Positions 3,219-35,920 of a DNA stretch of 64,000 bases are shown here, one piece after another. The position numbers and the translations under genes are program-made. Under the pieces are notes generated by a model, which was not told the DNA's origin, did no database searches, and worked only from the letters and a program-made list of their open reading frames with translations. Origin of the DNA: Paenibacillus sp. FSL H8-0332 (lineage in GTDB: Bacteria; Bacillota; Bacilli; Paenibacillales; Paenibacillaceae); NCBI RefSeq assembly GCF_037963835.1, contig NZ_CP150145.1:3286001-3350000 (forward strand), written 5' to 3'. Numbering within the stretch: the stretch's first letter is position 1; each line of letters begins with the position of its first letter.

Positions 3219-4475
3219 ATGGCAGATGAAGGATGCAATCAGAATGCTTCCGGATCTTGCTCACATGCAGAGGGGAACTCCACTACCGCTAGCGGGTTTG
3301 CTTCCCATGCTGAGGGGTACCAGACCACAGCCAGCGCTTCTGCGGCTCATGCTGAAGGCTACCAGACCATTGCAGCATTGGACACGGCCCATGCCGAAGG
3401 GAATGGGGCCCTTGCATCAGGACCGGCCTCACATGCGGAAGGTTACAGGACCTTTGCAATCAACGATGCTGCCCACGCTGAGGGAGGTTTAACTGTTGCT
3501 TCAGGGACTCAATCTCACGCTGAGGGTGCTCAGACGACTGCTTCGGGTGTAGCTTCTCATGCGGAAGGCAATCAGAGTACTGCAAGTGGTGAATACTCCC
3601 ACTCAGAAGGCTTCCTGACAGTAGCTGCTGGCCCTGCTGCCCATGCAGAAGGCTTCTCAACTCAGGCAAATGGGCTTAGTTCTCATGCTGAAGGTTCCTT
3701 CACTGAGGCGAATGGAAACTTTTCCCACGCAGAAGGTTTGTCTACAATTGCAGGTGCTCAGAACTCTCATGCTGAAGGGAACAGCACGGTTGTTCTTCCA
3801 GAACACACTGAAGCTCACATTATGGGTGCTTTTGGTGAAACACTGTATCCTGCTTCTTGGCATTTAGCCAATGGTACTCCATCCACCCCTGACCTGGCTG
3901 CTGTGCTTCAGGGGTCTACCGGAAATTTATACCTTAAAGGCACGGTAATGAATTTTGGGGCAGACTATGCCGAAATGTTTGAGACGGTGGATGGATTGCC
4001 GATCGAACCGGGCTATTTTGTGACCACGGATGGGGAGCGGGTAAGAAAAGCAACGCCAGCAGACAAATATATCTTGGGGGTAGTGAGTGCTACCCCCTCT
4101 GTCCTTGGAGATGCAAGCCCCTTGAACTGGAAAGGCAAATACGAAAGGGATGAATGGGGCAGGGTTAGATATGAAGACCGGGAAGTTGAGGCGGTGAGAG
4201 ACAGCGAGGATAATGTTCTGGCGCCTGCATATTCTGTGAGCGCGGCCGTTCTCAATCCTCAATACAAGCCGTCTCAAGCCTATGTGCCACGGATCGATCG
4301 CCCGGAATGGGTGGCTGTAGGAACCATGGGCAAGCTCCTTGTCCGGGATGATGGAACCTGTCAGGTGAATGGATATTGTCTTCCAGGTGCGAGTGGAGTG
4401 GCGACCGCCTCTACAGAAGGGTACCGTGTTCTTGCCAGAACAGCACCTGATCAAATCCGAATTTATGTGAAATAG
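3219..4475 (+). CDS. YadA-head-type repeat protein with Peptidase_G2 self-cleaving C-terminal chaperone domain
   Basis: 418 residues behind a perfect AGGAGG at 3205-3210. Residues about 15-195 are 13 consecutive 14-residue repeats beginning [SA]H[AS]EG with a T-x-ASG middle, the left-handed beta-roll repeat of YadA-type heads. After a linker comes NFGADYAEMFE (residues 245-255), the motif of the intramolecular chaperone of phage phi29/GA-1 appendages (Peptidase_G2). By analogy cleavage would fall between Ala248 and Asp249 with Glu252 catalytic, releasing the C-terminal ~170 residues after trimerisation. No signal peptide or TM segment is seen. No phage structural genes flank it, so it is a stand-alone gene: perhaps a spore or cell-surface fibre, or a domesticated appendage. 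Fold and processing are inferred; the repeats are seen directly. Confidence 0.82.
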   Translation: MADEGCNQNASGSCSHAEGNSTTASGFASHAEGYQTTASASAAHAEGYQTIAALDTAHAEGNGALASGPASHAEGYRTFAINDAAHAEGGLTVASGTQSHAEGAQTTASGVASHAEGNQSTASGEYSHSEGFLTVAAGPAAHAEGFSTQANGLSSHAEGSFTEANGNFSHAEGLSTIAGAQNSHAEGNSTVVLPEHTEAHIMGAFGETLYPASWHLANGTPSTPDLAAVLQGSTGNLYLKGTVMNFGADYAEMFETVDGLPIEPGYFVTTDGERVRKATPADKYILGVVSATPSVLGDASPLNWKGKYERDEWGRVRYEDREVEAVRDSEDNVLAPAYSVSAAVLNPQYKPSQAYVPRIDRPEWVAVGTMGKLLVRDDGTCQVNGYCLPGASGVATASTEGYRVLARTAPDQIRIYVK

Positions 4476-4510
4476 AGACGATTCAGCAAGCGGGCGCGGT
4501 TCAAAAATAT

Positions 4511-4550
4511 AAGGCAGCAATTCTCCTGTTATGGAGGATTGCTGCCTTTG
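4511..4550. terminator. Bidirectional hairpin terminator between converging genes
   Basis: Near-perfect 15-16 bp stem: AAGGCAGCAAT then TCTCC pairs with GGAGG then ATTGCTGCCTT around a six-base loop. It lies between the plus-strand repeat protein and the minus-strand GH4 gene. T-rich flank rightward (TTTGTTATT) and an A-rich left flank (TCAAAAATAT) let it serve both strands. Confidence 0.85.
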
Positions 4551-4561
4551 TTATTGAAGAT

Positions 4562-5860
4562 TTATTGATACTTCGGCAGCCAGTCACCATGAGCTGCGAT
4601 CAGATCGTCGCACATGCTGACAATGTCGTCCATTGACAGCTCCGCGGCGGTGTGCGGGTCCAGCATGGCGGCGTGGTAGATATGGTCCTTCTTGCGCGTC
4701 ATGGCGGCTTCGATAGTCAGGAGCTGGGTGTTGATGTTGGTCCGGTTGAGCGCTGCGCACTGCGGCGGCAGATCACCTACGAAGGTTGGCGTTACGCCGC
4801 TTCTGTCCACCAGACAAGGCACCTCGACACAGGCTTCTCTCGGCAGATTGGTAATCAGCCCCGTGTTCATCACATTGCCGCCGATTTTGAACGGCACATC
4901 CGTCTCCATGGCTTCCAGGATGTATGAGGCATATTCATGGGAACGCTCATGCTTCAGCTCCTGATTGTTCACCAGTTCCCCGCGCATCTGCTCCCACTGC
5001 TTAATCTGTTCCACGCAGCGGCGCGGATATTCGTCCAGCGGAATCTGGAAGCGTTCGATCAGCTCGGGATAGTTTCTTTTGATGAAGTACGGATGGTATT
5101 CGGCATTATGCTCGGAGGATTCCGTAATATAGTAGCCGAATTTCAGCATCATCTCGTAGCGGACCATGTCGTAGTGAGACTCCAGCTGCTTCTCGGACGC
5201 ACGCCGTTTGATCTCCGGGTACAGGTCCTCGCCGTCTTTGGTGACTTCAAGCAGCCAGGCCATGTGGTTGATGCCGGCGATTTTGGCTTGAACCCCTGTC
5301 TTGTCAATGCCGAGGTGGTCGAATAAGCCAGGAATACACTGCTGCACGCTGTGGCAGAGTCCAATGGTATTCACCCCGCCGTAAGTGTTCATGACGTTCG
5401 TCAGAACAGCCATCGGGTTCGTATAGTTCAGGAACAGCGCATCCGGGCAGACCTCACGGATATCCGCCGCGAAATCCAGCATTACCGGAATGGTCCGCAG
5501 GTTGCGGAAGATGCCGCCAATACCTACAGTGTCAGCGATCGTCTGGCGCAAGCCATATTTCTTGGGGATCTCAAAATCAGTAATCGTACAAGGATCGTAC
5601 CCGCCGACCTGAATGGCGTTCACCACATATTTGGCCCCGCGCAGCGCTTCCTTGCGGTCAGTATAGGTATTGACGGTACAAGTGCTGCCGCTGCTTTTCT
5701 TCAGATTCTGGAGCATGCTGGCAGAGTCATTCAGACGCTGCAGATCGATATCATATAGGGCAAGCTCGAAGCCTTGCAAAGCGGGTGTAGCCATGATATC
5801 TCCGAGTACGTTTTTGGCGAATACTGTACTTCCGGCACCGATAAATGTAACTTTAGACAT
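4562..5860 (-). CDS. melA: GH4 alpha-galactosidase (NAD+/metal-dependent)
   Basis: 433 residues starting MSKVTFIGAGSTVFAKNVLG, a Rossmann-type NAD+-binding N-terminus of glycoside hydrolase family 4. Further family marks are NYTNPMAVLTNV, the metal-ligand Cys in GLCHSVQ and the His of GINHMAW. GH4 enzymes hydrolyse alpha-galactosides by an oxidation-elimination route using NAD+ and a divalent metal, in the cytoplasm. The start at 5860 is supported by AGGAGG at 5871-5876 (minus strand); the frame stays open 46 codons further upstream but without a ribosome site there. Divergent from an AraC-family regulator, its likely activator. Alpha-glucosidase or alpha-glucuronidase members of GH4 are the alternatives. 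Confidence 0.85.
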   Translation of the reverse strand: MSKVTFIGAGSTVFAKNVLGDIMATPALQGFELALYDIDLQRLNDSASMLQNLKKSSGSTCTVNTYTDRKEALRGAKYVVNAIQVGGYDPCTITDFEIPKKYGLRQTIADTVGIGGIFRNLRTIPVMLDFAADIREVCPDALFLNYTNPMAVLTNVMNTYGGVNTIGLCHSVQQCIPGLFDHLGIDKTGVQAKIAGINHMAWLLEVTKDGEDLYPEIKRRASEKQLESHYDMVRYEMMLKFGYYITESSEHNAEYHPYFIKRNYPELIERFQIPLDEYPRRCVEQIKQWEQMRGELVNNQELKHERSHEYASYILEAMETDVPFKIGGNVMNTGLITNLPREACVEVPCLVDRSGVTPTFVGDLPPQCAALNRTNINTQLLTIEAAMTRKKDHIYHAAMLDPHTAAELSMDDIVSMCDDLIAAHGDWLPKYQ

Positions 5861-5922
5861 AAGAGTCTGGCCTCCTGTGGGTTGTGGAATATAAGATTTC
5901 AGAAGCTTTTTTCGCTTGTTTC

Positions 5923-5941
5923 TTCTATAATCACTATAGAA
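5923..5941. promoter_or_regulatory. Inverted repeat in the melA/araC divergent promoter region
   Basis: Perfect 7-bp arms TTCTATA and TATAGAA separated by ATCAC, in the 136-bp spacer between the divergent genes. The left arm overlaps a TATAAT (5926-5931) usable as -10 for the regulator. Candidate operator for the adjacent AraC protein; inference only. Confidence 0.4.
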
Positions 5942-5996
5942 TAGAACCGAAGGACCGCCTATGGAGAAAGACAAGATAGATATGGAGGAATGTTGC

Positions 5997-6893
5997 ATGA
6001 ATCCGGATCATTACGAGTTCACTCTGGCCATTAACCTCATACCGGAGGAGCAGGATTTGTCAGTGCTGTTCAGCGGCGAGGGGAGACCGCTTCCCGGACA
6101 CACCATAGGACCGTCCGTACATGATTTCTACTTAATACATACCGTTCTGGAGGGCGGCGGCCTGTTCGAGTGCGGGACGTTCACGGCGGAGTGCCGGGCG
6201 GGAGATACCTTCGTGATTATCCCCGGCTCATTATTCAGCTATAAGGCCGACCTCGATAATCCCTGGCATTATGCATGGGTTGCCTTGCAGGGCATTGGGG
6301 TACTGGATCTCCTTAGAGCGGTCGGGATTACGAAGGACCAGCCCTTTATCCGTTCCGGCGGCGGTAACGCCGCTGAGCTGCATAGCTTATATGAACATAT
6401 CAGGCTTGCGTTCAAGCAATCCGCTTATCCGCGGCTGGAGAGTCTGGAAGCATCGGGCTGGGCACGGCTGCTGCTGCACCAATTCGGACGCGATAATCTA
6501 AGCGCCTTGCCGCCGAATCCGTCCGGGATGCCGGAGATGATCGACCGGCAGATCGACCAGGCGATCCGCTGGATTACACTGCAATACCATCAGCAGATCA
6601 GCATCGATCACCTCGCATCCTCACTCGGCTATCACCGGGTTCATTTATCCAAGGCATTCAAGCAGCGGACCGGCCTGTCGCCCAAGCAGTTCCTGCTTAG
6701 AATCAGAATGGACAAGGCCAGAGAGCTGCTAGGCAGCACGCTGACGATTGAACAAGTGGCCTCTTCCGTCGGCTTCAATGACGCCTTGTATTTCTCCAAG
6801 CAATTCCGCAAAGCTACAGGCATGCCGCCGAGCGAATTCCGGGCAGTACTCAGGAACGGGAATGAAAAAGATACAGGAGGATCAAACATATGA
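5997..6893 (+). CDS. AraC-family regulator with N-terminal cupin-like sensor domain
   Basis: 299 residues. The N-terminal ~150 residues (GHTIGPSVHDFYLIHTVLEGGGLFECG, then AGDTFVIIPG) form an AraC-type arm/cupin sugar-sensing domain. Residues about 195-295 hold two helix-turn-helix motifs: ISIDHLASSLGYHRVHLSKAF and LTIEQVASSVGFNDALYFSKQF. ATG 5997 is preferred because GGAGG sits 8 bp upstream; an upstream ATG at 5961 lacks one. Divergent to the GH4 gene, so most likely its alpha-galactoside-responsive activator (MelR/RafR logic). Its stop overlaps the next start as ATGA, implying translational coupling. Confidence 0.85.
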   Translation: MNPDHYEFTLAINLIPEEQDLSVLFSGEGRPLPGHTIGPSVHDFYLIHTVLEGGGLFECGTFTAECRAGDTFVIIPGSLFSYKADLDNPWHYAWVALQGIGVLDLLRAVGITKDQPFIRSGGGNAAELHSLYEHIRLAFKQSAYPRLESLEASGWARLLLHQFGRDNLSALPPNPSGMPEMIDRQIDQAIRWITLQYHQQISIDHLASSLGYHRVHLSKAFKQRTGLSPKQFLLRIRMDKARELLGSTLTIEQVASSVGFNDALYFSKQFRKATGMPPSEFRAVLRNGNEKDTGGSNI

Positions 6894-7657
6894 AACCGCA
6901 AGTCCAGCGAATCCGTGATCTGACCATAGTACGAAGAGAGGGAGGGCGCTTGCTGGTCGTCGGCTGCGATTCCAGTGCCAGCATCGGCAACAAGCCGATG
7001 GATGTGGTGCAGACACCCCCGGCTGTTGCAGGCTATTATGCTGCCAGAGTTGCAGTGATGGAGGTCCTGTCTGTGGGAGCGGAGATTTTAACAGTCATCG
7101 ATACCCTGGCGGTAGAGAAGGAGCCTACAGGGAATGAGATTATCCGGGGCATCCACAAGCTGCTTCAGGAAGCCGGACTGACTACCGCCCATGTGAACGG
7201 CAGCACCGAGGATAATTTCGTGACCTGCCAGACCGGTATCGGAATCACTGTGATCGGTGAGGCTGAGGAGGAGCAGCTGAAGCTGGGGTGTTCACAGGGC
7301 GGAGACTGTATCGTGATGCTGGGCGAACCGCTGGTCGGAAGTGCAGTGCTGGTGCAGGAAGCAAGCCAGTGTACCCTCGGGCAGCTTCAGCTTTTGGCAG
7401 CTGCGCCGGAGGTCCATGATATTCACCCGGTTGGCTCTAAGGGAGCCGGGTATGAAGCGGAGCTTCTCGCAGAGTTGAACGGCTGTGGCTTCCAGCCGGT
7501 GCCTGGAATAGCGGATAAGCTACAGGCATCCGGGGGGCCGGCGACAGCGGTGATTTTTGCGGCAAAGGAATGTAGGATTAGTGAGCTTCAGTCTAGAATC
7601 GGCGGCAAGATGGAGATTATCGGTTATTTACAGCCTTGTACGGCTTACGGAAGGTGA
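6890..7657 (+). CDS. PurM/AIR-synthase-fold ATP-binding protein, possibly alpha-ribazole kinase (CblS)-like
   Basis: 255 residues, ATG 6890 overlapping the AraC stop by 4 bp. The N-terminal half has the nucleotide-binding features of the PurM/ThiL/HypE/SelD superfamily: LLVVGCDSSASIG, then AGYYAARVAVMEVLSVGAEILTVIDTLAVE and HVNGSTEDNF. The C-terminal half is a shorter domain ending MEIIGYLQP. The GCDSSASIG start and compact size fit the CblS group, which phosphorylates alpha-ribazole for cobamide assembly, but I cannot confirm this and no other B12 gene is in view. Coupling to a regulator of galactoside use is unexplained. Fold fairly sure, reaction not. Confidence 0.6.
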   Translation: MKPQVQRIRDLTIVRREGGRLLVVGCDSSASIGNKPMDVVQTPPAVAGYYAARVAVMEVLSVGAEILTVIDTLAVEKEPTGNEIIRGIHKLLQEAGLTTAHVNGSTEDNFVTCQTGIGITVIGEAEEEQLKLGCSQGGDCIVMLGEPLVGSAVLVQEASQCTLGQLQLLAAAPEVHDIHPVGSKGAGYEAELLAELNGCGFQPVPGIADKLQASGGPATAVIFAAKECRISELQSRIGGKMEIIGYLQPCTAYGR

Positions 7658-7785
7658 ATACCAGCGCGAACAAGGCGGATTTGATTAAACCAAATCTGGC
7701 CTGCCGCCAACAAATGGATAAACCGGTTCGGCCCCCTAATTGTGGAGACATTCTGCTAAAAACTCGTGTTTTCGCAGTTTCTCGT

Positions 7786-25589: not shown

Positions 25590-27302
25590 ATGTCAAGTCA
25601 GGTCTACGAAAAATTCACGCCGTTACACAATGCCAAGCTCGTTCTGGGGTATCTGACCTCTATGGTGGATGAGCAGGAAGACAATCTGCCCTATTGGCTG
25701 GTACTGCCTCATAAGAAACCAGCCGAGGCTGCCCATTGCCGGGTGGACGATGCGGAGCTGGTCGGCTCCTGGTATGAGGCCATAGACGCGGTACGCAAAA
25801 TGCTGAAGACGGAGGAAGGCGCTGCGGTGCAGCAATCCTTTTACCGCCATCTGATGAAGTCCTGGGGGGAGCACGGCCTGCGCTTTCATGAGCCTTATCC
25901 GTGGACGCATACGAATCATAGCTCTTTTCATGAAATGGGCTATATTCTTCCCGCGCTGAACCGGATGCTGGAGAATGATCCCGGGGAAGGGGAGGCGGAG
26001 AGCAGAGCGGCCGGGCTGGTGAGGGGAATGCGCTCCCTGGTGATTGAGCGGAAGGTAAGAACGTTCTGGTCGGGGGATTATGAGGAGCAGGAGCCCCTCT
26101 ACGAATTCCCCAATGATGTGTACCTGTTGGACGGCGGCTTCGATCTGTCCAGGCATACCGGGCGGGGGGAGCAGGCAATCCGCAATGCCATTATCCTGCA
26201 TTCTCTGGTGCGCAGATATGAAATTGCCGGAGATGAGGCCGCGCTGGATCTCGCAACGGGCATCGCCAACCATCTGCTCGGACCTTCACGCTATTTCAAT
26301 TACAAGATGGAGTTCTTCGGCCATGTCCATTCCGCAGGCTGGGTAGCTTCCGGTCTGGTACGTCTGGGCCGGGTAACAGGCAAGAAGCGGTATATTACCT
26401 CAGGCAAAGGAATCTATGATTATATCCGCAGCCTGTCCTCCTCCTTCGGTTGGGTGCCTGAGTATGCCCAGTGGCATCCGCCACATGAGGAGCATTGCGA
26501 GACCTGCTGCATCAAGGACATGATTGAATGTGCGAATGAGCTGATTCTGGCCGGGTATGAGGAATATTGGGAGGATATGACCCTGTTTGCGCGGAACCAG
26601 CTGGTGGAGAATCAGCTTAAGGTAACTTCCTACGTGGTCACAGACAATACCCGGCCTGACGAAGCAGGCATAACCTACAGGGAGATTGACCAAAGAATGA
26701 TCGGGGGCTTCACCGGAGGCTCACTCGTGAATTCCATGTCGTTATCCAAGTTTCGTTCCATTGCGGGCTGCTGCGTCGGCATGGCTCCGGTGGCCCTGGA
26801 GATCATATGGAACCGGGCGGTGGAATTCCAGAATGGAATGGTAATCGTCAATATGCCGGTGGATAAGGAGACGGAGGAGGCAGCCGTCACCATGAGCTAT
26901 CCCGACCAGGGCCATATGTCCATTACAGTCAAGCAGCCGTGCGATGTTGCGGTACGGGTCTATGACTGGATGGGGCAGAACCTCAGCATGAAGATTTACG
27001 GAGCCGTTTGCACACCTGAGAGGGAAGGGAATCTGCTTGTTATCCGTAGTATTGGAGCAGGGGAAACTGTAGAGCTGGAGCATCCGCTGGAGACGGTGGC
27101 TGTGAAGGAGACAGTGCGGGGCGAGGAATACAAGGTATCCTGGAGAGGCTGTGATGTCGTGGATATCGCTCCCCGGGGAGAGCATTTGAGACTGTATCAG
27201 CGGGATCTGCGTATCCCGAAAGTGTATCCCACGCCGGAAGATGTTCACTTCACCGGAGCGGCGAATTACGGGCCTACCCAGCAGGCGCAGGGGAGTAAAT
27301 AA
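25590..27302 (+). CDS. GH127-related (beta-L-arabinofuranosidase-like) enzyme, cytoplasmic
   Basis: 570 residues, no signal peptide. An (alpha/alpha)6-barrel-like body with short conserved blocks (FGHVHSAGWVASGLVRL) and a C-terminal beta region. Two cysteine clusters, Cys303-x-x-Cys306-Cys307 (HCETCCIKDMIE) and Cys394-Cys395 (AGCCVGMAP), are placed as in GH127 enzymes, where Zn-bound Cys is the nucleophile. The flanking text is not canonical DUF1680, so it may be a neighbouring family. Coupled to the secreted GH43 gene with its own GGAGGG site, which fits intracellular removal of arabinose from imported fragments. Substrate inferred from context. Confidence 0.68.
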   Translation: MSSQVYEKFTPLHNAKLVLGYLTSMVDEQEDNLPYWLVLPHKKPAEAAHCRVDDAELVGSWYEAIDAVRKMLKTEEGAAVQQSFYRHLMKSWGEHGLRFHEPYPWTHTNHSSFHEMGYILPALNRMLENDPGEGEAESRAAGLVRGMRSLVIERKVRTFWSGDYEEQEPLYEFPNDVYLLDGGFDLSRHTGRGEQAIRNAIILHSLVRRYEIAGDEAALDLATGIANHLLGPSRYFNYKMEFFGHVHSAGWVASGLVRLGRVTGKKRYITSGKGIYDYIRSLSSSFGWVPEYAQWHPPHEEHCETCCIKDMIECANELILAGYEEYWEDMTLFARNQLVENQLKVTSYVVTDNTRPDEAGITYREIDQRMIGGFTGGSLVNSMSLSKFRSIAGCCVGMAPVALEIIWNRAVEFQNGMVIVNMPVDKETEEAAVTMSYPDQGHMSITVKQPCDVAVRVYDWMGQNLSMKIYGAVCTPEREGNLLVIRSIGAGETVELEHPLETVAVKETVRGEEYKVSWRGCDVVDIAPRGEHLRLYQRDLRIPKVYPTPEDVHFTGAANYGPTQQAQGSK

Positions 27303-32221: not shown

Positions 32222-32561
32222 AGAAGGCCGCGCAGGAAGAAGTTTCGCACAGGCTCGTTTTTGACCGGGTAGACTTTGCTTACCGGAGAGGGCAGCCGGT
32301 ATATATTGCGGGAACAGTTCTGGCGGGAGGACAGCTCCGACGAAACCGCTCGATCTGGACCGCATTCTTGTGGCGCAACAGGCCAGAGGGTATGATATCA
32401 AGGATACCAAAGGCCTTAACCGGGTACAGGCTTACATCCAATTAGTGATTCCGCTGCTCGTCACCACCCTTGCGCGGGTGCTGACATATGCACGGATGGA
32501 TTATGCAGCCGGCGGGATTATGCTTGCGTATGTTCTGCTGGGAATTCTGCTAGAGAGATGA
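32218..32561 (+). pseudogene. Remnants of ecfA (ATPase) and ecfT (transmembrane) genes
   Basis: From ATG 32218 the frame reads HRLVFDRVDFAYRRGQPV, the start of an ECF ATPase, but no Walker A, signature or Walker B follows; the frame ends at 32445. In another frame, 32343-32561, KPLDLDRILVAQQARGYDIKD matches the EcfT AxxARG region, then IPLLVTTLARVLTYA jumps to RMDYAAGGIMLAYVLLGILLER, with the second ARG-type segment missing. Thus at least two internal deletions joined the N-terminus of ecfA to the 3' part of ecfT. Not expected to be functional. Confidence 0.75.
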
Positions 32562-32572
32562 GGAGATAGAGC

Positions 32573-33772
32573 TTGAACAGAACAGCCATACTGGAGCGGC
32601 TTCAGTCAGAGCTGCACGAAGGCAACCACATTATCGGCGTCTCGACAGGGACGGGAATTACGGCCAAGGTTGCCGCTGACAGCGGAGCAGACTTCATTCT
32701 TATGCTGAACTCCGGCAAGTTCCGGCAGATGGGGAGAAGCTCTCTGGCGGGGTTCCTGCCCTTCTGCAACAGCAATGAGATGGTGATGGATTTTGCCTCG
32801 AAGGAGATTGTGCCGCTGGTGAGAGACACTCCGGTGCTGTTCGGACTGAATGCGAATGATCCAACGAGAGAGATGTCCCTTTATATAGAAGAGATCAAGA
32901 ACAGAGGCTTCGCGGGAGTGAATAATTATCCGACAGTCGGCTTGATCGACGGGGCGTTCAGAGAGGCATTGGAGGAAGACGGCATCAGCTATGACAGGGA
33001 GGTGGAGGCTATACGTCTGGCTCATCAGCAGGAGCTGTTCACGGTGGCCTTCGTCTTCGACGAAGCCCAAGCGGTCCAGATGGCTGAAGCGGGGGCAGAT
33101 GTGATCTGTGTGCATCTCGGCCTAACCGTAGGCGGATTGCTGGGGGCACGGAAGGTGGTCTCTCTGGAAGCTGCCAAGGCGAAGGCACTGCGCATTCTCA
33201 CTGCCTGCGGTGAGGTTAAGCCTGAAGTCATTAAGATGATCTACGGCGGCCCGGTCAAGACTCCGGTTGATGTCCAGTATATGTACAGCAATAATACGCA
33301 GATTATGGGCTACATTGGCGGCTCTGCCTTTGAACGGATCCCCTCCGAGCAGTCGATTACGGCCATTACCCGCGATTTCAAGCGCCTGGGCAAGCTGGAT
33401 GAAGATGATCTCATGGTCAAAATGCTCAGCGGCATCACCCGGCATTACGATTACGTAGAATTCGTCAAAGAGTATGTCGCCCAGAATTACAGCGAGGAAG
33501 TAGTGTTCGCGGATCTGGCCAAGGTGGCGCATGTGTCGCGCAGTTATCTGAGCAGCTTGTTTAAAAAGGAAGTGGGCTGCAGCTTCCAGAACTATCTGGT
33601 CGGCTTCCGTATGCAAAAGGCTGCCATACTGCTCCAGGCCCCGCACCTGCAATTATCCGAGGTGTCCGCAATGGCCGGCTACCCTGACTATGCCCAGTTC
33701 AGCAGAATGTTCAAAAAGCTCATGGGCTGTTCGCCCAAGCAGTACAAATCTAACCTAAACACAAAAACATAG
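32573..33772 (+). CDS. AraC regulator fused to a TIM-barrel PEP-hydrolase-family sensor domain
   Basis: 399 residues from TTG 32573 with GAGGAG eight bases upstream. Residues 1-275 are a complete TIM barrel of the PF09370 type (IIGVSTGTGITAKVAADSGADFILMLNSGKF, then [19 protein letters not shown] and GADVICVHLGLTVGG), clearly paralogous to the product of 35090-35920. Residues ~290-395 are an AraC two-HTH domain (FADLAKVAHVSRSYLSSLFKK; LSEVSAMAGYPDYAQFSRMFKK). The enzyme-like domain probably binds the same small ligand the downstream enzyme handles. I infer it controls the following two genes. No ordinary AraC sensor domain is present. Confidence 0.85.
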   Translation: MNRTAILERLQSELHEGNHIIGVSTGTGITAKVAADSGADFILMLNSGKFRQMGRSSLAGFLPFCNSNEMVMDFASKEIVPLVRDTPVLFGLNANDPTREMSLYIEEIKNRGFAGVNNYPTVGLIDGAFREALEEDGISYDREVEAIRLAHQQELFTVAFVFDEAQAVQMAEAGADVICVHLGLTVGGLLGARKVVSLEAAKAKALRILTACGEVKPEVIKMIYGGPVKTPVDVQYMYSNNTQIMGYIGGSAFERIPSEQSITAITRDFKRLGKLDEDDLMVKMLSGITRHYDYVEFVKEYVAQNYSEEVVFADLAKVAHVSRSYLSSLFKKEVGCSFQNYLVGFRMQKAAILLQAPHLQLSEVSAMAGYPDYAQFSRMFKKLMGCSPKQYKSNLNTKT

Positions 33773-33776
33773 GACA

Positions 33777-33814
33777 TAAAAGCGTTTTCATCCATAAACA
33801 TCCCCGGTATGATG
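33777..33814 (+). promoter_or_regulatory. cre-like site and -10 box before the Tm-1-like gene
   Basis: TAAAAGCGTTTTCA (33777-33790) is one base off the CcpA cre consensus on the opposite strand (TGAAAACGCTTTTA). TATGAT at 33809-33814 can be the -10. Suggests a promoter separate from the regulator gene and possible carbon-catabolite control. Confidence 0.45.
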
Positions 33815-33846
33815 AATCTATGATTCGTATACGAGGAGGCAGGAGA

Positions 33847-35064
33847 ATGAAGACAATCGCCATAGCTGGAACGTTTGATACGAAGGGTGAGGAGTACCTG
33901 TACATCAAGAAGCTTGCAGAGGAGCTGGGCCTCAGAGCCCTGATGATCCATACCGGTGTATTCGAGCCAGCCTTTCAACCCGATGTGTCTAACCGGGAGG
34001 TCGCATCCGCCGCAGGGATGGAGCTGGACGAGCTTGCCGCGAAGAAGGACCGGGCGTTAGCTACAGAAGTGTTGTCCAAAGGTCTGGAGCAGCTCGTTCC
34101 CCGGTTATACCAGGAGGGGAAATTTGACGGCATCATATCCTTCGGGGGCACCGGCGGAACTTCACTGGTTGCCCCTGCCATGAGAGCCTTGCCGATCGGC
34201 GTACCGAAGGTGCTGGTATCCACGGTTGCCTCCGGAAATACCGCCCCTTATGTCGGGACCAGCGATATTATGATGATTCCGTCTGTGGTGGATGTCTCAG
34301 GCCTCAATTCGATCTCGACGAGAATATTCAGCAATGCGATGTTTGCCATCGCGGGCATGCTCCTGTTCGAAGCAGACTATGAACCGGAGAAAAAGCCGCT
34401 GGTCGCAGCCACCATGTTCGGAGTGACCACACCGTGTGTGACCGAAGCGCGCAAATACCTGGAGGAGCGCGGCTACGAGGTGCTGGTATTCCATGCTACC
34501 GGAATCGGCGGACAATCGATGGAGGCGCTGATCGAAGCGGGCTTCATTGAAGGGGTGCTGGACTTAACCACCACCGAATGGGCAGATGAACTGGTCGGCG
34601 GCGTCTTGAACGCAGGACCGCACCGCCTGGAGGCCGCAGGCCGCAACCGTATTCCGCAGGTCGTCTCGGTAGGCGCCCTGGATATGTGCAACTTCGGCCC
34701 GGCGGATACCGTACCGGAGAAGTTCAAGGATCGCAAATTCTATCATCATAACCCGACCGTTACGCTGATGCGGACGACCGTGGAGGAGAATGAACAGCTC
34801 GGCAGGAAGCTGGCCGAGAAGCTCAATATGGCAACGGAGAGTACGGTGCTTATGCTGCCGCTTGGCGGTATTTCGGCGATTGATGTGGAGGGTCAGCCCT
34901 TCTACGGCCCTGAAGAGGACCGGATGTTGTTCGATACCCTGCGCCGGCAGGTGGACTGCTCAAGAGTTGAACTGATCGAAATGGACCTGGCGATTAATGA
35001 TCCGGCCTTTGCCGAGGCCGCAGCCCGGAAGCTGATTGATCTCATGCAGGCCGCGAAGGCCTGA
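33847..35064 (+). CDS. Tm-1-like ATP-binding protein (UPF0261)
   Basis: 405 residues starting [26 protein letters not shown], the UPF0261 hallmark; then [25 protein letters not shown] and the two-domain fold reaching [24 protein letters not shown]. Homologous to the N-terminal ATP-binding domain of tomato Tm-1, which blocks tobamovirus replication. Bacterial role unknown. GAGGAGG site before ATG 33847. Followed after 25 bp by the TIM-barrel gene that corresponds to the C-terminal half of Tm-1, so the pair is a split Tm-1. Confidence 0.9.
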
Positions 35065-35089
35065 AACCCACAATAAGGAGGAGCTACTA

Positions 35090-35920
35090 ATGAATAAGCA
35101 GACCAGAGCTGAGATTATGGATAGATTCAAGCAAGAGGTGAAGGCGGGTAATATTCTTCTCGGTGTCGGGGCAGGCACGGGGATTACCGCTAAGAGCAGT
35201 GAAGCAGGCGGAGCGGATATGCTGATTGTGTACAATTCCGGCCGTTACAGAATGGCGGGACGCGGTTCACTGGCAGGCTTGCTGTCGTATGGCGACGCCA
35301 ATCAGATTGTGGTGGAGATGGGTTCGGAGGTGCTACCTGTCGTCAAGGATACGCCCGTTCTGGCAGGGGTATGCGGCACCGACCCGTTCCGGGTGATGGA
35401 GGTATTCCTGAAGCAGCTGAAGGAGCAGGGCTTCAGCGGTGTGCAGAATTTCCCTACCGTGGGTCTGATCGATGGCGTATTCCGCCAGAATCTGGAGGAG
35501 ACCGGGATGGGCTACGGCCTCGAGGTCGAAATGATCCGCATCGCCCATGAGCTGGATATGCTGACGACCCCGTATGTGTTCGACCCTGAACAGGCACGGG
35601 CCATGGCAGAGGCGGGTGCAGATATTCTGGTCGCCCACATGGGCCTCACCACCAAGGGCACCATTGGCGCAGTTACCGCGCTAACACTGGACGATTGTGT
35701 GGAGCGTATTGAAGCGATTATCGAAGCCGGACGGGCGGTCAACCCGGAGATTATGATTATCTGCCACGGCGGCCCGATTGCCGAGCCGGAGGATGCGGCT
35801 TATGTCATTCAGCGGACGAAGGGCATCCATGGATTCTTCGGCGCATCAAGCATCGAGCGCTTCGCGGCGGAGCAGGGAATTACCCGCCAGACCGAGTCGT
35901 TCAAAGCAATTGGGCGATAA
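35090..35920 (+). CDS. PEP-hydrolase-family TIM-barrel protein (Tm-1 C-terminal domain homologue)
   Basis: 276 residues, PF09370-type: [52 protein letters not shown], and [30 protein letters not shown] site upstream. It is the free enzyme version of the domain fused to AraC at 32573-33772; motifs correspond block by block. Works presumably with the Tm-1-like protein encoded just before it; the true reaction of this family is not well established. Confidence 0.88.

Follow-up and report, generated by a model that had tools for sequence, protein, structure and literature searches.

An AraC-type regulator with an enzyme-type PF09370 TIM barrel as its predicted sensor, encoded next to the UPF0261-PF09370 operon that it very probably controls

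The 64,000-nucleotide stretch of DNA analyzed here (the window) contains a gene for an AraC-type transcription factor whose N-terminal half resembles an enzyme, and a free version of that enzyme is encoded two genes further on. This raises the questions of whether the fused gene is real, where its barrel came from, what it controls, and what it senses. We put the probability at roughly 80% that it encodes a one-component activator in which a sensor-type PF09370 barrel switches on the adjacent UPF0261-PF09370 operon. The features on which the argument depends are as follows.

32560–32565, + strand: Shine-Dalgarno sequence GAGGAG of the regulator gene, from the sequence
32573–33772, + strand: regulator gene, PF09370 TIM-barrel sensor plus AraC-type DNA-binding domain, 399 aa, single open frame with a TTG start
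32588–33385, + strand: PF09370 sensor domain, aa 6–271 (Pfam; predicted model matches PDB 2p10, Z 27.7)
33242–33244, + strand: codon for Tyr224 of the regulator, at the position of an invariant His in free enzymes (alignment)
33515–33748, + strand: HTH_18 AraC-type DNA-binding domain, aa 315–392 (Pfam; model residues 289–399 match 6swi, Z 16.4)
33748–33789, + strand: predicted operator, a 21-bp direct repeat with ACCTAAACACA at 33753 and ACATAAAAGCG at 33774, found with a held-out matrix and overlapping the end of the regulator gene
33785–33790, + strand: predicted −35 element TTTTCA, which falls within the second half-site and is separated from the −10 by 17 bp
33808–33813, + strand: predicted −10 element TATGAT, 60 bp from the operator start
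33847–35064, + strand: UPF0261 (Tm-1-like) gene, PF06792 + PF23189 (Pfam), ATG start after AGGAGG at 33834–33839
35090–35920, + strand: free PF09370 enzyme-type protein, 276 aa, ATG start (Pfam, 432.5 bits; model matches 2p10, Z 33.4)
35765–35767, + strand: codon for His226 of the free protein (H225 in the alignment, H224 in A2/A4 numbering), at the end of a predicted strand (alignment, model)

Pfam matched PF09370 in the regulator at 365.6 bits (cut-off 33.8) over model positions 2–266 of 267, that is, as a full-length domain, and the C terminus matched both HTH_18 (75.3 bits, cut-off 33.6) and HTH_AraC (58.8 bits, cut-off 26.6), giving the two helix-turn-helix motifs of the AraC/XylS family. 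The classical cupin-type sensor of that family, which is not required of every AraC member, was absent from the Pfam matches of the regulator, its place being taken by PF09370; the AAA+ domain of sigma54 enhancer-binding proteins (PF00158) was absent as well, and is present in sister architectures. The predicted model of the regulator had a pLDDT of 70.7, with several loops below 50. Its sensor superimposed on 2p10 with an rmsd of 4.0 over 257 residues and its C-terminal domain on 6swi with an rmsd of 2.4 over 111, the free-protein model matched 2p10 with an rmsd of 2.4 over 249, and the DNA-binding domain also matched structure 2k9s, which we take to be the DNA-binding domain of AraC. The sensor barrel and the free protein had 44% identity across 273 aa (a single comparison, E 1e-85) and shared GTGITAK and N-x-PTVGLIDG. 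The view taken in the first-pass annotation, that an AraC factor uses a paralogue of the nearby enzyme as its sensor and matches it block by block in its N-terminal part, was thus borne out, with PF09370 and HTH_18 lying in one 399-aa frame.

That such a frame might be a frameshift, an assembly join or a pseudogene would be in keeping with the fact that some relatives have the fusion gene split in two frames. However, the genome's assembly is a single contig with two PF09370 copies only (one fused, one free), 41 genomes of the genus carry the fusion in one open frame, and all three Pfam families, among them PF09370 and HTH_18, the pair proposed for a domain-architecture search, were matched in 48/48 aligned fusion relatives. 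Neither an absence from relatives nor a break near residue 280 was found, these being the weak points that had been foreseen for the fusion, and we give an artefact next to no credence; the fusion is confirmed as one intact gene that is common to relatives.

Within the genus, PF09370 was matched in 47 of 100 genomes, this one included, and above the cut-off in 46. A second copy was present in 43 of the 47, as one stop-free frame of 398–462 aa in 41 and split in 2; three of the remaining genomes had the free form only and one had a weak match only. All 33 of the 41 one-frame copies that were fetched had the helix-turn-helix in the same frame. Matches were found in 82/296 genomes of the order (81 over the cut-off), 38/398 of a phylum sample, and 53/300 of the class of genome G372 (40 over the cut-off). 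The AraC fusion occurred in Paenibacillus, Clostridium, Tepidibacter and Fusibacter species and in unclassified Firmicutes; among the 28 loci of that survey it lay in one frame in 24 and was split or truncated in 3 (L181, L193, L195), and L196 had the free form only. Split or truncated regulator genes were seen in six loci altogether, namely L107 and L181 (probably one genome), L113, L114, L193 and L195.

The gene that separates the regulator from the free PF09370 gene is a two-domain UPF0261 gene starting with the ATG at 33847, and its protein matches the label PRK02399. This order was common: among 107 fused-regulator loci, a set of regions taken around fusion-length copies that includes duplicates (the same genome twice) and five split genes, UPF0261 and free PF09370 were close by in 104 (93 AraC-type, 11 sigma54-type), leaving 3 AraC-type loci without UPF0261. 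The loci are related, so these counts do not represent independent events. The cassette of fusion, UPF0261 and free PF09370 recurs in Paenibacillaceae and Clostridia, so it is no local oddity. In L101–L106 we observed a second AraC-fusion arrangement, in which the free gene lies on the opposite strand between the regulator and UPF0261, and L111 showed a third gene order. A RuBisCO-like protein (recognized by eye) lay beside PF09370 in six loci (L155, L158, L159, L163, L166, L168), five of which had two free PF09370 copies around UPF0261. On the other side of the regulator, positions 32223–32561 of the window hold only the end pieces of an operon that is intact in the near-identical locus of P. 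silagei (L173), where genes for two ABC ATPases and for a T-like membrane protein (3567–5989) lie between an AMP-binding gene and the regulator; the intact genes and the remnant presumably represent an ECF-type transporter operon. Further away, window positions 25590–27302 encode a 570-aa protein without a Pfam match at 1e-5.

We next consider what distinguishes the sensor from the enzyme. In the alignment, the His of the C-H-G-G-P motif was present in 54/54 main-group and 13/13 second-group free rows, and the same position was Tyr in 47/47 AraC and 11/11 sigma54 sensor rows; these counts leave aside six free rows with divergent or degenerate sequences (L156, L161, L162, L166, L167, L247) and a Bradyrhizobium sigma54 fusion with the motif LLGGGP, which has neither His nor Tyr. 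Across unique free proteins, the His occurred in 181/184, the three exceptions being degenerate copies from one genus (g84, see below). A motif scan left two sigma54 rows and one AraC row outside the pattern, in which the Tyr was recognized by eye, and gave one Tyr, two Phe and two without a match among five sensor fragments. The window regulator, with Tyr224, thus lacks the beta-7 His (HGGP) that is invariant in the enzyme group, and PDB 2p10 carries the enzyme-type SHGGP. In the model of the free protein this His ends strand 220–224, on the side of the barrel where TIM-barrel enzymes usually have their catalytic site.

Many other positions were at least 93% common to the free and sensor groups, including, in sensor numbering, G28, D40, R51, N68, D96, N118, D126, E143, H181, T185, S251 and R255. 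Since many polar residues are kept and the invariant His has become Tyr, the sensor probably binds a substrate, product or close analogue without catalysis. At further positions that are invariant or almost so in the enzymes, the AraC sensors also carry different residues (Leu45 and Phe160 each for a Tyr, Asn66 for Asp, Cys179 for Val and Gly250 for Ala), and because two Tyr and one Asp are among those replaced, the bound ligand need not be that of the enzyme. Bifunctional enzyme-regulators such as PutA and NadR exist, and the retention of polar invariants such as D96, N118, E143, H181 and S251 would suit a fused protein that is a working enzyme and also regulates its own pathway. Against this, the beta-7 His is Tyr in nearly all sensors, and a free enzyme lies beside the regulator in 104/107 loci, with a degenerate copy in the other 3, so that enzyme activity of the regulator would be mostly redundant; we consider a bifunctional protein improbable.

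The same sensor is found with a different output. In other Bacillota, PF09370 was fused to Sigma54_activat, an AAA lid and a Fis helix-turn-helix (L149, L152, L238), and a divergent sigma54-type fusion was found on a Bradyrhizobium plasmid (L255), whose AAA+ domain (in the gene at 5932–7707 of that locus) appeared by eye to be without the GAFTGA motif. In a quick tree of 132 barrels, a branch with support 94 set all sensors apart, and a single truncated Fusibacter sensor that carried the label free fell with them; in a careful tree of 56 barrels, hand-picked from the 132, the split between sensor and free forms had support values of 99 (UFB) and 98 (SH-aLRT). A tree with the sensor and its neighboring free enzyme as sisters was rejected, with a log-likelihood 300 lower and a p-AU of 2.6e-6. 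The trees thus place sensor and free barrels in two old lineages, and this split together with the rejected sisterhood argues against a recent capture of the adjacent enzyme. Adjacency and 44% identity are what a recent local duplication of the neighboring enzyme, then joined to an AraC domain, would predict; the topology test refutes that origin under the model used, and the fusion is common to Clostridium, Tepidibacter and Fusibacter, so we attach virtually no weight to it. The earlier proposal of enzyme capture as a ligand sensor therefore stands as to the enzyme-type TIM barrel in the sensor position and falls as to the adjacent enzyme as its source: the protein is probably a one-component regulator with an enzyme-derived sensor, and the evolutionary story needs correction.

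The AraC domain may have been acquired on one occasion or on two: the AraC sensors grouped together in 47% of the trees from 200 bootstraps. In the quick tree, L106 and L111 sat among the sigma54 sensors with a support of 89, and L101, which shares the arrangement of L106, had no match to the operator matrix described below; this fits, and does not prove, a separate AraC acquisition. One enzyme-derived sensor lineage serves two unrelated transcription outputs, AraC and sigma54.

The target of the regulator had been sought upstream of 33847, and a predicted direct-repeat operator with promoter-like elements was indeed found there, at 33748–33789. Across 45 non-redundant gaps between AraC-type regulators and UPF0261, a direct-repeat motif reached a log-likelihood of 414, vs. 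76–96 in three shuffled sets, the search being seeded from four sequences and the shuffled control from two. A 42-bp operator matrix trained on 18 loci, all from outside Paenibacillaceae, scored at least 15 bits in 18/18 training gaps and 18/27 held-out gaps (non-redundant); the other 9/27 fell below 15 bits, with L101 (which has a different gene arrangement) and L244 strongly negative. In the 64-kb window, on both strands, the predicted operator scored 40.0 bits and the next best site 2.7, so the matrix revealed no second operator for autoregulation there. A −10-like hexamer (at least 4 of 6 letters of TATAAT) stood at an offset of exactly 60 bp, counted from the start of the operator, in 35/36 sites; other offsets from 42 to 75 had it in 0–8 sites each, except for 20 sites at offset 71. 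Allowing up to 3 mismatches, a full-site consensus composed after the window site was known had a single occurrence in the 7.54-Mb genome, and a reversed-pattern control had none. Because the operator partly overlaps the 3′ end of the regulator gene, protein conservation contributes to its conservation in close relatives; elsewhere, the predicted operator lies up to 75 bp past the regulator stop.

If the fused regulator controls the UPF0261 operon, sigma54-type regulators would be expected to have a sigma54 promoter at that place. A sigma54-promoter-like site (at least 8 of 12 letters) was present in the regulator-UPF0261 gap in 9/9 non-redundant sigma54-type loci, eight of them with at least 9 letters, and in 0/46 non-redundant AraC-type gaps; the scan covered 15 sigma54 rows (some loci twice) and 92 AraC-type rows, with gaps above 400 bases cut to their last 260. 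Mononucleotide-shuffled gaps gave 8 letters in 1.9–3.7% and 9 letters in 0.4–0.6%. When 160 bases of the UPF0261 frame were included in a looser scan, two AraC-type rows reached 8 (L154, L234), and the control stretch 5′ of the regulator gave at least 9 in six AraC-type rows (L096, L098, L110, L170, L172, L250) and in one sigma54 row (L241). In the gaps of L238, L239 and L241, palindromes such as TATGGGAAA...TTTCCCATA lie 5′ of the sigma54-promoter-like sites and look, by eye, like activator sites.

From these comparisons of sequence, the regulator very probably controls the adjacent operon. In the mechanism that we propose, the PF09370 barrel would bind a substrate, product or close analogue without turning it over, and binding would be passed on to the AraC-type domain by the helical linker. 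As a dimer, the regulator would occupy the 21-bp direct repeat, whose second half overlaps the −35 element of TTTTCA-17-TATGAT, and the bound regulator would then turn on the UPF0261-PF09370 operon (33847–35920). The overlap of the second half-site with the −35 could also let the protein block RNA polymerase, in which case the regulator would repress the operon and its ligand would release the repression. However, sigma54 promoters need an activator, so the sigma54 versions of the sensor must activate, and their loci have promoter-like sites at the corresponding position; moreover, AraC-family sites that overlap a weak −35 are typically activating. We therefore think repression unlikely and favor the activator.

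A lead to the ligand came from genus g84, in which UPF0261 was found in 0/7 genomes (six at 99–100% and one at 88% completeness). In the three unique g84 copies of the free barrel that were examined (L156, L246, L247), the barrel was degenerate and HGGP was lost in all three. In 7/7 g84 loci the AraC regulator and an operator precede hexuronate genes, with gene families scanned in three loci and L261, L262, L264 and L265 assigned by shared sequence starts. In L263, the genes 3′ of the regulator include those for tagaturonate reductase, glucuronate isomerase and KDPG aldolase (554, 580 and 270 bits against cut-offs of 359, 387 and 241, respectively), and also encode altronate/galactarate dehydratase domains, a GH28 protein and a symporter of the GPH type that scored under its cut-off; L260 and L266 encode KDPG aldolase, a PfkB kinase (in L260 with KDG kinase as its best match, below cut-off), and KduI or mannonate dehydratase. 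Over both strands of the seven loci (247,378 positions), a matrix whose training loci comprised five relatives outside g84 but in its family, and none from g84, gave its seven best scores, 24.2 to 7.5, to the seven regulator-hexuronate gaps, the next score being 5.2.

Of 88 conserved sensor positions, 80 were unchanged in all three g84 sensors compared. This context suggests that the sensor ligand could be a hexuronate or a 2-keto-3-deoxy acid. The two hexuronate branches meet at 2-keto-3-deoxygluconate, and it is the presence of both branches and this meeting point that lead us to that guess, although in g84 a change of target may have been accompanied by a change of ligand. More generally, and as a tentative reading that we hold to be somewhat doubtful, PF09370 sensors could be a portable pseudoenzyme module, with AraC or sigma54 outputs, for a 2-keto-3-deoxy sugar acid or another hexuronate catabolite, and the UPF0261/PF09370 pair could be sugar-acid enzymes. 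In the surroundings of free-only cassettes, mostly of Paenibacillales, sugar-type ABC transporters, an oxidoreductase of the Gfo/Idh/MocA family, a xylose-isomerase-like barrel and a cupin each recurred in 10–12 of 20 loci (with Pfam scans for L282 and L277), a context that fits a carbohydrate role. Counting against the narrow sugar-acid reading, the pair in Thermomicrobium lies beside branched-chain-amino-acid-type transporters and fumarylacetoacetate hydrolase, and no neighboring hexuronate genes were recognized by eye in five loci of the family to which g84 belongs whose cassette is complete (L267, L269, L270, L272 and L273). Among 410 neighbors from 68 loci, no pathway gene common to the flanks of the regulator cassettes was found, the ABC proteins that grouped there being a large, unspecific family.

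The expectation that the fusion could help with the ligand question of the Tm-1/UPF0261 family holds in so far as the g84 loci supply a concrete starting list of testable candidates for an orphan enzyme pair. Given that the regulator probably reads the pathway's own ligand, that a single operator is predicted for it and that its target operon is compact, a direct ligand screen is possible. A sugar-acid breakdown product is our first testable guess at what this old enzyme family recognizes and, if it is true, the antiviral protein Tm-1 of plants would descend from enzymes of sugar-acid metabolism.

In the literature searched, which was mostly open-access, we found no paper on a PF09370-AraC fusion and no reaction assigned to UPF0261/PF09370. 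Former names of PF09370 (“TIM-barrel signal transduction”, “TIM-br_sig_trns”) indicate that a signaling role was already suspected. Its sigma54 association is already known from an annotation in print, in an entry of PMC2422844 for Photorhabdus plu1011 (TIM-br_sig_trns, putative sigma54-dependent activator); the adjoining plu1012 is labelled “PrK012399-domain” there, which resembles the PRK02399 of UPF0261, though not letter for letter. Passages of PMC5028733 name the domain TBST, report its co-evolution with UPF0261, and describe plant Tm-1L as a UPF0261-TBST fusion, the plant form of a pair that is widespread in bacteria and also occurs in archaea and fungi; the terms AraC, sigma and helix-turn-helix are absent from that paper. 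A passage of PMC8963296 pairs COG5441 with COG5564 in fungi.

Among known systems, the closest are the PF09370-sigma54 AAA+/Fis activators, which belong to the same sensor lineage and adjoin UPF0261 and free PF09370 in the fetched loci (plu1011 being likened by annotation only), and from which the regulator described here differs in its AraC-type output and in its predicted 21-bp direct-repeat operator and sigma70-type promoter. AraC itself has a cupin sensor and an I1-I2 direct-repeat operator in a 21-bp register that overlaps the −35; the predicted operator here is likewise a direct repeat in that register overlapping the −35, and the C-terminal double helix-turn-helix is alike, whereas the sensor is a TIM barrel. 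Mll9387 (PDB 2p10, “putative phosphonopyruvate hydrolase”) has the same PF09370 fold, with Z-scores of 33.4 for the free protein and 27.7 for the sensor, but carries the enzyme-type SHGGP and is without a DNA-binding domain; plant Tm-1L also shares the fold and, being fused to UPF0261, is unlike the regulator here. MocR/GabR proteins, in which published descriptions give a GntR winged helix-turn-helix with an aminotransferase-like domain, likewise use an enzyme-derived sensor in a one-component regulator, though with an unrelated fold, cofactor (GabR binds PLP) and DNA-binding domain; a MocR-like way of working, with ligand binding in place of catalysis, is what the sequence of this regulator leads us to infer.
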